Origin: Rhodoferax sp.
GTDB lineage: Bacteria; Pseudomonadota; Gammaproteobacteria; Burkholderiales; Burkholderiaceae_C
DNA length: 64,000 nt
Assembly: GCF_025354435.1 (NCBI RefSeq)
Contig: NZ_JANXMU010000032.1
Location: 163,526-227,525 of the forward strand
Direction: 5' to 3'
The translations under genes were made by a program, and so were the position numbers. The notes below the pieces were generated by a model. That model was not told where the DNA came from and ran no database searches. It saw only the letters and a list, made by a program, of their open reading frames with translations. This document shows positions 6,312 to 16,605 of the stretch, in pieces; the first letter of the stretch is position 1, and each line of letters begins with the position of its first letter.

Positions 6312-8681
6312 TTGAAAACTCTGCCCCACTCCCTCTACTTCAAAACGCGCCACTCTGCATGGGCCCTGTGGGGTGGCATGGCGCTCAGCGCCCTGGTGCT
6401 AGCTGGCTGTGCTGGCGACGGCGATAGCAACGGTGTCAACATCCAGGGCGTTGCCGCCACCGGTGCGGCCATGGCCAACGCCAGCGTGGTCGCCAAATGC
6501 ACAGCGGGAACGGCATCGGGCAAAACAGCGGTCAACGGCAGCTATGCGCTGTTTGTGCCCAACGGTGCTTTCCCGTGTGCCATCGAAGTGTCGGATGGCA
6601 GCCGCAAGCTGCATTCGGTGGCGAACAGCAGCACACTCAGTGCGGTAGCCCATGCCACACCACTGACCGAGCAACTGGTGGGTCAACTGTCTGCCGACAC
6701 GGCGGCATTTTTTGACGGCTACAGCGCCACTACCGCGGCCAGCCTGAGCCCCAGCACTCTCAAGGCAGCGCAGGATGCCGTGTTTGCGTCGCTGGCCGCC
6801 AATGGGCTGGCGGTGCCCAGCAGCCTGACCAATCTGCTGGAGGGCGCTCTGGTCGCCAAAACGAGTGCCCAAGCGGGCAACGACTACGACCAATTTCTGG
6901 ACACCGTGGCCGCCAAGCCGGTCAACGTGAAAATGATTGCGCTGAACGATTTCCACGGCAACATCGAACCCACGTCAGAAACCAATGGCGGCTCGGTGGT
7001 ACTGCCCAATGGCGGCTCGGGTCAGCGGGTGGCGGTGGGCGGAGCCGCCTACCTGGCCACCGTGGTGAAGAACCTGAAGGCCAAGAACCCCAACAACATC
7101 ATGGTGGGCGCGGGCGACATGGTGGGTGCATCCCCATTTGCCTCCAGCATCACCCACGACGAAGCCAGCATCGACGTGCTGAACCAGATCGGGCTGGAAG
7201 TGACATCGGTGGGCAACCACGAGTTTGACCACGGCATCGCCGAGCTCAAGCGCCAACAAAACGGCGGCTGCTACCCGGCATCGGGCAGCGTGGGTGTGGT
7301 GGGCAAAGACACCTGCCTGATCGACGGCAAGTTCCCCGGAGCCAAGTTCAAATACCTGACGGCCAACGTGGTGGACACCGCCACCGGCAAGCCCATCTTG
7401 GCGGCCACTTACATCAAGCGCTTTGGTACCGTCAGCGTGGGATTCATTGGTCTGACGCTACAAGGCACATCGGCCCTGGTGGGCTCCACCGGCGTGGCCG
7501 GGCTGCGGTTTGACGAAGAATCGGCCACCATCAACCAGTACGCAGCCCAGCTCAAGGCCAACGGCATCACTGCCGTGGTGGTGCTGATCCACCAGGGTGG
7601 CCAAACCACCGCCACCACGGTCAACGACAAGACCTGCCCCGGCCTGAGCGGCGATATTCTGCCCATCATGGACAAGCTGAGCAGCAATGTGGACGTGGTG
7701 GTCAGCGGCCACACCCACCAGGAATATGTGTGCAACTACGCCGCCAAAGCCGCGGGTAAAAACATTTTGCTCACCTCCACCGGCTTTTACGGCGGTGCCG
7801 TGAGCGAAATCGACCTGACCCTGCAGCCCAGCAAGGGCATGGTGGCCTCGGTGGCCAACACGGTGCCGGTGATCCGTGCTGCCGGCAGCTACACGGTGGC
7901 GACCTCGAACAACACGGTCATCCCGACCGGGTTCACCGCCGTGGCCCGTGACACGGCCATCGACGCGCTGGTCACCAAGTACGTGGCCATCTCCAAGATT
8001 GCCGGTTCGCAAGCCGTGGGCAGCATCACTGCCAGCATTACCCGCGCTTTCTTGCCCAATAGCACCACCCGCGACGAAACCACCGAAGGTGCCATGGGCG
8101 ACCTGCTGGCCGACACCTATCTGGCCGGTGTGCCCGGCGGCGCAGACTTTGCGCTGATGAACCCGGGCAGCGTGCGAGCCGATCTGGTCTATACCGGCAC
8201 CGGTACCGTCACCTTCAGCGACCTGGCCACCATCGAACCCTTTGGCAACACGCTGGTGACGCTGAACCTGACCGGCGCGCAGATCGTGCGGCTGCTAGAG
8301 CAGCAATGGGAATCGCCCAACCACACCGCCAAAACCAACACCGCCACCGGTGCGGTAGGCCGCTTGCTGCTGCCGTCGCAGGGGCTGACCTATACCTACG
8401 ACAACAACCAGCCCGCCGGTGCCGCCTCGGGCCAGGGCAACCGCATCGTGGCGGGCACCCTCAAGCTCCGTGGCGTGGCGATCGACCCGGCCAAGACCTA
8501 CAAGATCGCGACCAACAGCTTCCTGGGCACTGGCACCGGTGGTGACAACTTCACGGTGATGGCCACCCAGGGCAGCAACATCCTGGACACCAAAGTGTTG
8601 GACCTGGATGCCTTCATTGCCTACATGGGAGCCCACTCGCCCGTAAGCCCGCCTGCCGCACGGATTACCCGGCTTAACTAG
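6312..8681 (+). CDS. bifunctional metallophosphatase/5'-nucleotidase lipoprotein
   Basis: A UshA-type periplasmic nucleotidase. The start is TTG at 6312 with AAGGA eight bases upstream. A lipobox LAGC follows the signal segment. Residues about 38-200 form an extra N-terminal region: first a carboxypeptidase-regulatory-like fold (VNIQGVAATGAAMANASVVAKC), then a helical linker. The dimetal catalytic domain begins near residue 207 (NDFHGN) and contains GAGDMVG, GNHEFDHG (about 300) and SGHTHQEY (about 464). The C-terminal nucleotide-binding domain has MNPGSVRADL and TGAQIVRLLEQQW. The 789 residues exceed the roughly 550 of E. coli UshA because of the N-terminal addition. Confidence 0.9.
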   Translation: MKTLPHSLYFKTRHSAWALWGGMALSALVLAGCAGDGDSNGVNIQGVAATGAAMANASVVAKCTAGTASGKTAVNGSYALFVPNGAFPCAIEVSDGSRKLHSVANSSTLSAVAHATPLTEQLVGQLSADTAAFFDGYSATTAASLSPSTLKAAQDAVFASLAANGLAVPSSLTNLLEGALVAKTSAQAGNDYDQFLDTVAAKPVNVKMIALNDFHGNIEPTSETNGGSVVLPNGGSGQRVAVGGAAYLATVVKNLKAKNPNNIMVGAGDMVGASPFASSITHDEASIDVLNQIGLEVTSVGNHEFDHGIAELKRQQNGGCYPASGSVGVVGKDTCLIDGKFPGAKFKYLTANVVDTATGKPILAATYIKRFGTVSVGFIGLTLQGTSALVGSTGVAGLRFDEESATINQYAAQLKANGITAVVVLIHQGGQTTATTVNDKTCPGLSGDILPIMDKLSSNVDVVVSGHTHQEYVCNYAAKAAGKNILLTSTGFYGGAVSEIDLTLQPSKGMVASVANTVPVIRAAGSYTVATSNNTVIPTGFTAVARDTAIDALVTKYVAISKIAGSQAVGSITASITRAFLPNSTTRDETTEGAMGDLLADTYLAGVPGGADFALMNPGSVRADLVYTGTGTVTFSDLATIEPFGNTLVTLNLTGAQIVRLLEQQWESPNHTAKTNTATGAVGRLLLPSQGLTYTYDNNQPAGAASGQGNRIVAGTLKLRGVAIDPAKTYKIATNSFLGTGTGGDNFTVMATQGSNILDTKVLDLDAFIAYMGAHSPVSPPAARITRLN

Positions 8682-12870: not shown

Positions 12871-13683
12871 GTGGCAATGACCACCGCCGCCGACATCAGT
12901 ACCCGCATCATCGAAGCCGTGATGGCGCAAAAACTCGCCCCCGGTGCGCGCCTGGGCGAGCAGCCGCTGGCCATGCTGTTCGACTGCAGCCGCACCATCG
13001 TGCGCGAGGCACTCACCCGGCTGGCCGCACGCGGCATCGTCACAGTCAGCGCGCGCCGCGGCTGGTACGTGATTGAGCCCTCGCAAGACGAAGCCCGCGA
13101 GGCATTTGAGGCCCGCCGGGTGATCGAAACCGGCCTGATCCGTAGCCTGCAAGGTATTGAAAAGCCCGCCCTGAAGCGTCTCAAACAACACCTGAAGGAA
13201 GAGCAGGCGGCCATCAAGGGCAATGACGTGGGCACGCGCAGCTTCCTGCTGGGCGACTTCCATGTGTGCCTGGCCGAATGCCTGGGCAACAGCCTGCTGG
13301 CCGACACGCTGCGCGACTTCACCGCCCGCACCACGCTGATCGCCATGCTCTACCAGTACTCGCACAACGCCGAACAGTCCTGCGAAGACCACGTGCAGAT
13401 CGTCGCCGCCCTGGAAAAAGGCGACACCGCCCTGGCCGAAAAGCTCATGGCCGCCCACATTGGCACGGTGCAGCAGGCGCTGAGATTGCCGGTGGCCACC
13501 GACCCGCTGGCCCAACTGCGCGATGCCCTGGCCCCGGTAGGTGCCTCGGCCAAGGCAGCATCTGCGGCACAAGACTTGCGTACAAGATCCCGAAAAGCCA
13601 AGCCCTTATTGGGCACTGACACGGGCGCTGGCATTGAATCGCCCCCCGACGACCCATCCACTTACCTAGGAGCCCTGCTATGA
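12871..13683 (+). CDS. GntR-family (FCD/FadR-type) transcriptional regulator
   Basis: An N-terminal winged helix (about residues 8-75, GEQPLAMLFDCSRTIVREAL with ARRGWYV) is followed by an all-helical FCD ligand-binding domain to about residue 220. A loose tail of about 45 residues follows. The FCD metal-site residues appear as D..H in LGDFHVCL and H in EDHVQI and AAHIGTV. The start is GTG 12871, or ATG 12877. The stop overlaps the start of the substrate-binding protein gene as ATGA, so this regulator is the first gene of the transporter operon and probably controls it. Confidence 0.92.
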   Translation: MAMTTAADISTRIIEAVMAQKLAPGARLGEQPLAMLFDCSRTIVREALTRLAARGIVTVSARRGWYVIEPSQDEAREAFEARRVIETGLIRSLQGIEKPALKRLKQHLKEEQAAIKGNDVGTRSFLLGDFHVCLAECLGNSLLADTLRDFTARTTLIAMLYQYSHNAEQSCEDHVQIVAALEKGDTALAEKLMAAHIGTVQQALRLPVATDPLAQLRDALAPVGASAKAASAAQDLRTRSRKAKPLLGTDTGAGIESPPDDPSTYLGALL

Positions 13684-14483
13684 CACTCTCGTCCACACCG
13701 ACCCGCCGCCACTTCCAATCTGGCCTGGCCGCCATCGCCCTGCTCGCCAGCCTGGGTGCCCACGCCCAGACTGCCTTGGACGACGTGCTGAAGGCCAAAA
13801 AGATCACCATCGCCATCCTCACCGACTTCCCTCCCTACGGCTTTGTCGGTACCGACCTGAAGCCCCAGGGCCTGGACATCGACATGGCCAACTACATCGC
13901 CACCAAGCTCGGCGTGGCGGTAGAACTGGCCCCCGTGACCAGCGCCAACCGCGTGGCCTACCTGCAGTCCAAAAAGGCCGACCTGGTGATCTCGTCGATA
14001 GGCAAAAACGCCGAACGCGAAAAAGTCATCGACTTCACTGTTGCCTACTCGCCCTTCTTCCAGGCGGTGTTTGCCGCCAAGACCATGAGCATCAAAAGCT
14101 TTGCCGATCTGGCAGGCAAGTCGGTGGGCGTGACCCGCGGCGCGATCGAAGACCAGGAGCTGACCAAGCTGGCCCCGTCGGGCACCGACATCAAGCGCTT
14201 TGAAGACAACAACGTCACCGTCTCGTCCTTCGTCTCCGGCCAGGTGCAGGTGATTGCCACCGGCGCGTCGGTGGCGGGCAACCTGATGGCCAAGAACCCG
14301 CAATTGGGTGCCGAATACAAGCTGCTGCTGAAAGATTCGCCCAACTTCATCGGCGTGGCCAAGGGCGAAGACGCACTGCGCGCCAAGGTCAACGAAATCA
14401 TCATCGCCGCCAAAAAATCCGGCGATATCGACAAGATGGCCGTCCGCTGGCTGGGCCGCCCCGCTGGCAATTTGCCTGAATAA
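13680..14483 (+). CDS. amino-acid ABC transporter substrate-binding protein
   Basis: A family 3 periplasmic solute-binding protein. A twin-arginine-like TRRHFQSGLA precedes a hydrophobic stretch and AHAQ cleavage region. The mature fold begins KKITIAILTDFPPYGFVGTD, and GLDIDMANYIATKLG is the typical ligand-lobe motif. The hinge region carries LAGKSVGVTRGAIEDQEL. The substrate is probably a polar amino acid, but it cannot be named. It is coupled by ATGA to the upstream regulator and followed by two permeases and an ATPase. Confidence 0.92.
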   Translation: MTLSSTPTRRHFQSGLAAIALLASLGAHAQTALDDVLKAKKITIAILTDFPPYGFVGTDLKPQGLDIDMANYIATKLGVAVELAPVTSANRVAYLQSKKADLVISSIGKNAEREKVIDFTVAYSPFFQAVFAAKTMSIKSFADLAGKSVGVTRGAIEDQELTKLAPSGTDIKRFEDNNVTVSSFVSGQVQVIATGASVAGNLMAKNPQLGAEYKLLLKDSPNFIGVAKGEDALRAKVNEIIIAAKKSGDIDKMAVRWLGRPAGNLPE

Positions 14484-14508: not shown

Positions 14509-15180
14509 ATGCGCATCGCATTCGACTTCTACGCCGTACTGGAGCAGTGGCCGCTGCTGGCCAAGGGCATTGTCTGGACGCTGGGCCTGACGCTGATCGC
14601 CACGGTGATCGGCGCGGTGCTGGGTATCTCCTGCGCCTGGGTGCGCAGCCAGAATACGCGGGCTCCGCTGTGGCTGCAGGCGCTGGTGGGCGCGTGTGTG
14701 GAGCTGATCCGCAACACGCCGTTCATCGTGCAACTGTTCTTCATCTTCTTCGGCCTGCCCGCACTGGGCTTCAAGCTGTCGCCCGAGGTGGCCTCCATCC
14801 TGGCCATGGTGATCAACCTGGGGGCCTATGCCACCGAGATCATCCGCGCCGGCATCGATGCCACGCCCAAGGGCCAGATCGAAGCCGCCTCCAGCCTGGC
14901 GCTGAGCCAGATGCAGATCTTCACCCGGGTGGTGCTGCCGCCCGCCTTGAAGAAGGTCTGGCCCGCGCTGGTCAGCCAGATCATCATCGTCATGCTGGGC
15001 TCGGCGGTGTGCGGGCAAATCTCTACCGAAGAGCTGAGCTACGCCGCCAACCTGATCCAAAGCTGCAATTTCCGCGCGTTCGAGGCCTTCATCATCGCCA
15101 CCGGCATTTACCTGGCGCTGTCGATGTCGGTGCGCAAGCTGCTGAACTGGCTGGGTCCGCGTTTTGTCTACGGTCGCTAA
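14509..15180 (+). CDS. amino-acid ABC transporter permease, first subunit
   Basis: A HisMQ/GlnP-type inner-membrane permease of 223 residues with about five membrane segments. The EAA loop that contacts the ATPase is visible near residues 120-145 (GIDATPKGQIEAASSLALS). The ELIRNTPFIVQLFFIFF segment is diagnostic for polar amino-acid permeases. A strong GGAG precedes the ATG at 14509. This gene is intact, unlike the next two. Confidence 0.93.
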   Translation: MRIAFDFYAVLEQWPLLAKGIVWTLGLTLIATVIGAVLGISCAWVRSQNTRAPLWLQALVGACVELIRNTPFIVQLFFIFFGLPALGFKLSPEVASILAMVINLGAYATEIIRAGIDATPKGQIEAASSLALSQMQIFTRVVLPPALKKVWPALVSQIIIVMLGSAVCGQISTEELSYAANLIQSCNFRAFEAFIIATGIYLALSMSVRKLLNWLGPRFVYGR

Positions 15181-15191
15181 GGACGCACACC

Positions 15192-15845
15192 ATGGTTGAT
15201 TTCGCCATTTGGGATATTTTTCGCAACCTGCTGCTGGCGGCACGCTGGACGATAGGCTTGTCGCTGATGGCATTCATCGGCGGCGGCATCGTCGGCGTAC
15301 TGCTGCTGGTGGCTCGTCTGAGCCAGGTGCGCGGCACCGAGACGTTTGTGGTCGCCTACGTGCAGGTGTTCCAGGGCACGCCGCTGCTGATGCAGTTATT
15401 TTTGGCGTACTTTGGCATTGCGCTATTCGGCATCAACACCAGCGCCTGGGTGGCGGCGGCTGCCGCGCTCACGCTGTACACCAGCGCGTTTTTGACCGAG
15501 ATCTGGCGCGGCTGCGTGGCCTCCATCCCCAAGGGGCAGTGGGAGGCCTCGGAAAGCCTGGCGCTGAACTTCGGTGAGCGGCTGCGCTACGTGGTGCTGC
15601 CCCAGGCCGTCAAGATCGCCATCGCGCCCACCGTAGTCTTCCTAGTGTAGGTAATCAAGGGCACGGCGCTGGCCTCGGTGATCGGTTTCATCGAGCTCAC
15701 CAAGGCCGGCACCATGATCGCCAACGCAACTTTCAAGCCCTTCGTGGTCTATAGCTGCGTTGCTTTGATGTACTTCGCCCTGTGTTTCCCGGTCAGTTTT
15801 TACGCCAAATTGTTAGAGAGGAAGATGCATGCAGCCCGCCGCTAA
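15192..15845 (+). pseudogene. amino-acid ABC transporter permease, second subunit, with in-frame TAG
   Basis: A second HisMQ/GlnP-type permease. Residues 1-152 are intact (VFQGTPLLMQLFLAYFG, EAA loop WRGCVASIPKGQWEASESL). A single TAG at 15648-15650 falls exactly where the family has glutamine (VFLV-stop-VIKGTALASVIGF). The frame then continues perfectly to TAA 15843-15845, giving the normal length of 217 residues. CAG to TAG is one transition. The 3' end overlaps the ATPase start by 17 bases. It is either a nonsense mutant losing the last 65 residues, or is read through by an amber-suppressing tRNA. Confidence 0.85.
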
Positions 15846-16605
15846 ACCCACTATGTCGCCCAGTACAGCACCCGCGATCGTCGAGATCAAAGGCCTGCGC
15901 AAGTCCTTCGGTACGAACGAGGTGCTCAAAGGCATCGACCTGCAGGTGCAGGCCGGTGAGGTCATTGCCATCATCGGCAAAAACGGCTCGGGCAAGAGCA
16001 CGCTGCTGCGCTGCATCAACGGGCTGGAAGTGTTCCAGAGCGGCAGCCTCACGGTGGACAGCAAGCCACTGCTGCACGACAACGCCTTGGCCATGCGGGC
16101 GCTGCGCCAGCGCGTGGGCATGATTTTTCAGGGTTTCGACCTGTTCCCGCACCTGACGGTAGGCAAGAACGTGATGCTGGCCCCGCGCCTGGTCAAGCAG
16201 CAAGCCGACGATGCAGGCACGGCCCAGGCCAAGAAACTGCTGGCCCGCGTGGGTCTGGCCGAAAAATTTGATGCCTGGCCCGACCAGCTCTCGGGCGGGC
16301 AGTAGCAGCGGGTGGCGATTGCCCGCGCGCTAGCCATGGAGCCGGCCGTGCTGCTATGCGACGAAATCACCTCGGCACTCGACCCGGAACTGGTCGGCGA
16401 AGTGCTGCGCGTGGTGGAGGGCCTGGCCGACGAGGGCATGACCTTGCTGATGGTGACGCACGAAATGAGCTTTGCCCGCAAGGTGAGCAACCGTGTGATC
16501 TTTATGCATCAGGGCCGCGTGCACGAGATGGGCCCGCCGAACGAGCTGTTTGGCAACCCGCAAACGCCGGAACTCAAGCAATTCTTGTCTTCACTGACCG
16601 ATTAA
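15829..16605 (+). pseudogene. amino-acid ABC transporter ATPase with in-frame TAG in the signature motif
   Basis: A GlnQ/HisP-type ATPase. Walker A is GKNGSGKST near residue 50, the Q-loop is [13 protein letters not shown], Walker B is [14 protein letters not shown] and the switch His is in VTHEM. The ABC signature reads [18 protein letters not shown]: the TAG at 16303-16305 replaces the middle glutamine of the usual QQQ. Downstream sequence is intact to a normal stop at 16605, 258 residues in total. Termination here would leave a 158-residue fragment without Walker B. Again one C-to-T change accounts for it. Confidence 0.87.

Follow-up and report, generated by a model that had tools for sequence, protein, structure and literature searches.

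The closest counterpart of the locus described here is the bacterial nonsense pseudogene. The two are alike in carrying single-base premature stops in genes that remain recognisable, in being confined to one lineage, in belonging to a multi-copy family, and in showing missense changes at conserved sites; nothing essential differs, and two stops in overlapping partner genes are neater than usual. In-frame TAG at glutamine positions is also a feature of crAss-like phages, which, in the available text of two reports, use genetic code 15, read TAG as glutamine, and have suppressor tRNAs (PMC9523058, PMC10879173). A further point of comparison comes from Belinky et al. 2021 (PMC7918605): the available text of that study argues that short-lived in-frame stops showing dN/dS below 1 are widespread in bacteria, and its large-scale part rests on same-position stops in two or more species. 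A CAG/TAG exchange inside a low-dN/dS gene is common to those cases, as that text presents them, and to the present one.

The operon itself is of a familiar type. In Comamonadaceae, ABC importers for polar amino acids that are accompanied by a GntR regulator have the same gene order and the same components—SBP_bac_3, two BPD_transp_1, and ABC_tran—and homologous operons are found in Rhodoferax, Variovorax, and kin (best 80 of 569 loci). Among the papers listed on Rhodoferax with pseudogenes, no title or abstract opening dealt with the importer operon.

The locus departs from three of these systems in specific ways. Unlike other Comamonadaceae importer operons, it has two broken genes among the four that encode the transporter. 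Unlike in the code 15 phages, release factor RF1 is open, a suppressor tRNA was not found, TAG serves normally to end genes, and other stops interrupt genes as well. Unlike the large-scale cases in the available text of PMC7918605, the TAG codons are not common to any relative compared. We assign a probability of roughly 0.83 to the reading that a dispensable polar amino-acid ABC importer was recently lost and that both TAG codons are ordinary C-to-T nonsense mutations.

Operon organisation and predicted truncated products

The window—the whole stretch of DNA analysed, 64,000 nucleotides—belongs to a Rhodoferax genome of 4.66 Mb, an 89-contig draft rated 100% complete with 0.8% contamination; Rhodoferax and kin were the nearest genomes for comparison. 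The operon runs in the order regulator, binding protein, permease 1, permease 2, and ATPase, all on the + strand:

12871..13683, + strand: GntR/FCD-family regulator gene; open, with PF00392 and PF07729; S163Y at a near-invariant site
13680..14483, + strand: periplasmic amino-acid-binding protein (SBP_bac_3); open, with PF00497; L107I
14509..15180, + strand: permease 1; open, with PF00528 and with TIGR01726 over its cut-off; Y63C at an invariant site
15192..15845, + strand: permease 2; 217 codons plus TAA, with an in-frame TAG; 152 of 217 aa precede the stop
15648..15650, + strand: premature TAG, codon 153 of permease 2; Gln in all 95 others at 60% identity or more
15829..16605, + strand: ATPase; 258 codons plus TAA, with an in-frame TAG directly after LSGGQ
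16303..16305, + strand: premature TAG, codon 159 of the ATPase; Gln in all 95 others at 60% identity or more

The combination of SBP_bac_3, two BPD_transp_1, and ABC_tran domains in one operon identifies a polar amino-acid ABC importer. As to its substrate, among the matches listed none of the seven pieces exceeded the cut-off of an NCBIfam equivalog. The regulator shares 93% identity with that of congener G007, and the ATPase and permease 2 genes overlap by 17 bases. Both TAG codons lie where the original prediction had placed them, and its statement that both genes run on without a frameshift to a normal stop is borne out: apart from the TAG codons, the two frames are open throughout.

Each stop removes a needed part of its product, as in a nonsense pseudogene. 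The N-terminal piece of permease 2 covers positions 9–115 of the 184 in PF00528, and the corresponding piece of the ATPase covers positions 1–113 of the 137 in PF00005. The truncated permease would lack the final membrane segments; the shortened ATPase would end directly after LSGGQ, before the DEITSALD and VTHE stretches. We take LSGGQ to be the signature, DEITSALD the Walker B/D-loop, and VTHE the H-loop; a permease without its last membrane segments and an ATPase ending after LSGGQ would both be expected not to work. Because the ATPase gene overlaps permease 2, its translation may be reduced by the permease stop as well. In an importer already killed by one stop, another would cost next to nothing, and the two losses would then not be independent surprises.

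Conservation and constraint across homologous operons

Among loci of at least 60% identity, glutamine occupies the permease 2 site in 95 of 96 (91 CAG and 4 CAA) and the ATPase site in 95 of 96 (89 CAG and 6 CAA), the exception in each case being the genome under study. A recount without its own locus gave glutamine in 94/94 and 95/95, representing 90 distinct permease and 91 distinct ATPase sequences; four genomes are present twice in this set, hence the smaller numbers of distinct sequences. The original prediction had described both sites as glutamine in these families. That description holds for orthologues (95/95 other loci per site) and fails for the superfamily as a whole, in which remoter paralogues vary: the permease site is Q in 102 and I in 100 of 225 matches, and the ATPase site is Q in 139 and R in 31 of 192 matches.

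Within the genus, all six ATPase orthologues (90–97% identity) are without the stop, and the same six congeners have glutamine at the permease 2 site; a seventh same-genus genome (71% complete) yielded only a 58% ATPase relative. Neither TAG was found outside this genome among the loci compared, so neither is shared by two or more species. The stops are therefore absent from close orthologues (6/6 same-genus; glutamine in 95/95 loci per site), the pattern of a nonsense pseudogene.

Stops were also noted in other ATPase-related loci. Locus L127 has one near the start of its ATPase match, and a stop is flagged in three listed matches of 49–59% identity from other genomes (G029, G008, and G003).

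The two stops had been presented as occurring with no other damage, a claim that does not survive comparison at columns at least 97% conserved over 62–79 loci, with five genomes compared. Near-invariant residues are replaced in all five operon genes: Y63C in permease 1 (Y in 76/76 other loci), G149V in permease 2 (G in 79/79), S52N and N104D in the ATPase (each conserved in 79/79), L107I in the binding protein (L in 77/77), and S163Y in the regulator (S in 61/62). These six replacements and both stops are found in this genome alone among the five compared; three further differences at conserved columns are common to the genus. Changes at near-invariant sites in the congeners comprise L132M (G007, G002, and G004) and A180S (G003) in permease 1 and R18Q in permease 2 of G004 only, with none in permease 2 of G007, G002, or G003 and none in any congener ATPase. 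The related claim that the other transporter parts and the regulator are intact thus stands for their open reading frames but not for their residues, since L107I, Y63C, and S163Y fall at near-invariant sites.

Substitution counts give a more graded picture. Polarised substitutions over the operon are 10 nonsynonymous to 52 synonymous here versus 5 to 68 in two congeners (P = 0.10), a weak excess. Nonpolarised counts look stronger (34.3 to 90.7 here versus 8.5 to 120.5 in G007 and G002) but contain the stem branch and are therefore not relied on. Pairwise dN/dS of permease 2 and the ATPase is low, at 0.038–0.094, which indicates that most of the divergence accumulated under constraint and hence that the loss is recent or that some function has been kept.

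Mutational routes and broken genes elsewhere in the genome

Two mutations of exactly the same type had been considered surprising, but the premise is weak. Of the transitions that can create a stop, CAG-to-TAG is the most frequent in each gene, with 7 of 17 such routes for permease 2 and 13 of 18 for the ATPase; the joint chance of two CAG-to-TAG changes is 0.30 if only transitions are considered and 0.026 if all single-base routes are treated as equal (7/60 and 13/58). Other in-frame stops are also present in the genome. When 40–50 stops per genome, a number extrapolated from the sample, were placed at random, a pair fell within 655 bp in 20–28% of trials.

Across four domain families, 10 of 360 domain matches in this genome contain a mid-gene stop (6 TAG, 3 TAA, and 1 TGA), the congener count being 1 of 441 (Fisher P = 0.0034); with the two window genes excluded, the counts are 8 of 358 versus 1 of 441 (P = 0.013). 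Thirteen matches had been flagged, and three were dropped on reading the frame: two terminators (C67 and C29) and a terminator after a frameshift (C3). The single congener match with a stop, in G007, is a rearranged fragment. The control counts for PF00990 and PF07690 come from both G007 and G002, those for PF00005 and PF00528 from G007 alone, and the PF00005 counts rest on the best 150 scored candidates. For GGDEF matches, stops occur in 3 of 57 here versus 1 of 124 in two congeners. By these counts of domain matches the in-frame stop load seems higher here than in the single-contig congeners, and part of the excess could reflect assembly quality, the genome being a draft of 89 contigs and the two main controls single contigs.

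A coding-potential scan covered 1.264 Mb of this genome, where it listed 41 candidates, and 0.94 Mb from four congeners, where it listed 27. Judged by eye and not blind, 11 of the 41 were mid-gene, versus 0 of the 27, with C8:71274 unresolved besides; the remaining candidates looked like gene ends before a following gene or wrong-strand ORFs, and C33:6781 comes from the first scan only. The residue in homologues varied at C81:8326, C64:18713, and C30:98892, and neither C81:107401 nor C8:71274 had a homologue in the DNA compared. An enrichment of TAG beyond mutation was considered and rejected: the 17 distinct mid-gene stops collected comprise 10 TAG, 6 TAA, and 1 TGA, near the 62% TAG expected if transitions alone make stops at this codon usage (10/16 tested, P = 1.0).

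Genes with close relatives in the congeners gave a different view. The comparison took in 125 congener ORFs, antisense ones among them, that had close matches here (identity of 75% or more, 80% coverage). Stops were flagged in 21 and a frameshift in none; sorting by eye left just the two window genes as truly broken, the others being in the wrong strand or frame or having the stop before the true start. In the reverse comparison 11 of 174 ORFs were flagged, also sorted by eye. With only the two window genes broken in this close-match set, losses seem to affect chiefly those genes that have no close orthologue in the congener stretches sampled.

Individual interrupted genes span several families. 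An in-frame TAA at contig position 7672 interrupts the gene of an ABC ATPase that was assigned from its sequence to the oligopeptide/phosphonate type (G000:C13:7546-7998; L184, L044). The nearest homologue has glutamine there, in which case a C-to-T change like those in the importer would have produced TAA instead of TAG, although most remoter homologues have threonine (95/182 matches). Two further ABC ATPase genes are frameshifted (G000:C45:53540-54064, L046 and L283; C53:4891-5354, L047), the C45 gene also having an in-frame TAA, and a second ABC permease gene, adjoining its ATPase, carries an in-frame TAA (L284; G000:C8:172635-173144). Three GGDEF-domain genes have one in-frame TAG each (G000:C33:6781, C30:98892, and C15:25369; L176, L226, and L229). 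An in-frame TAG is likewise present in a gene named from its sequence as TonB-dependent-receptor-like (G000:C74:15297, L168) and in one similarly named RND-type efflux-pump-like (G000:C8:150164, L203). MFS transporter genes (L276, L277, L278, and L280) are broken by TGA (C79), TAG (C51), TAA (C27), and a frameshift (C3). The flag on C61 in this genome is a stop before the true start.

Sequencing or assembly error, with one or both TAG codons as wrong base calls, would be in keeping with a genome in 89 contigs whose stop excess was measured against single-contig genomes. We nevertheless regard it as unlikely. Only two of the 125 close-match ORFs were judged by eye to be broken and none shows a frameshift, which gives no sign of errors across conserved genes; missense changes at invariant sites are found in the operon too; and the C45 gene combines a frameshift with a stop, as real decay would give.

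Readthrough, decoding, and the meaning of the probable loss

Low-level functional readthrough, in which a near-cognate tRNA-Gln occasionally reads both UAG codons and leaves a little working importer, could draw on the low pairwise dN/dS, on the frames that stay open past the stops, and on the argument, in the available text of PMC7918605, that in-frame stops with dN/dS below 1 are widespread in bacteria. The same text bases its large-scale part on stops shared by species, and neither TAG is present in any of the six congener orthologues. With a UAG in each of two partners that depend on one another, a low readthrough rate would be squared, and invariant residues of the operon have been lost as well. 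Deliberate low-level readthrough, one of the readings offered in the original prediction, therefore found no positive evidence, and we hold low-level functional readthrough to be improbable. More doubtful again is the proposal that the single tRNA-Gln (UUG) weakly reads UAG and that the two stops form a paired dimmer on importer output, not a loss. If readthrough were true, paired stops would be tuning a transporter in a free-living bacterium; no evidence points there.

The decoding apparatus was surveyed over the whole genome. An Rfam tRNA search, with ARAGORN run on all 45 matches, revealed no tRNA with a CTA anticodon among them, so the check proposed for such a tRNA came back negative. The only tRNA-Gln seen has a TTG anticodon and is identical in sequence in G002 and G007. 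tRNA-Ile(gat) and tRNA-Ala(tgc), which usually lie within rRNA operons, were not found among the 45 matches; the assembly is thus probably gapped, with the rRNA operons probably unassembled. RF1 is open and scores 497 bits, over the family cut-off, with both PAT and GGQ present, which we take to serve as RF1 motifs.

Use of the codon is likewise conventional. In the sampled part of this genome TAG terminates 145 of 756 clear genes, and the congener share is likewise 19% (105 of 549), which agrees with the earlier view of TAG as an ordinary terminator and argues against full reassignment. A second stop lies within three codons in 3% of TAG-ended genes versus 8–9% for other stops, so that tandem back-up stops are not in excess. 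At least one in-frame TAG, in a GGDEF domain, stands in place of an acidic residue, not glutamine (D or E in 30/30 other matches). A recoding restricted to TAG and to glutamine was considered and set aside, given this acidic site and the mid-gene TAA and TGA codons also found.

Strain-wide amber suppression, whether by the glutamine suppressor tRNA originally suggested or by altered termination that makes UAG read as glutamine, would account for two TAG-for-Gln sites in one operon and for further in-frame TAGs elsewhere, and a suppressor tRNA might sit in an unassembled stretch, but it is barely credible against 45 tRNA matches without a CTA anticodon, a tRNA-Gln (ttg) identical to that of two congeners, an open RF1 with its PAT and GGQ motifs, TAG codons that end clear genes without excess back-up stops, and TAA and TGA stops that interrupt other genes too.

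Of the four readings in the original prediction, the one with the most support is recent double-nonsense loss, there called a very recent double loss. Six further ATPase relatives at E ≤ 1e-60 are encoded in this genome; such remaining same-family ATPases could serve importers covering the function, which would explain why this one was dispensable. In the simplest account, a redundant importer was recently inactivated in a lineage that carries more broken genes than is usual.

The finding matters little beyond providing a clean example of a redundant transporter likely dying by two common base changes. It also carries a warning: Paired CAG-to-TAG stops in a G+C-rich genome are expectable from mutation alone.
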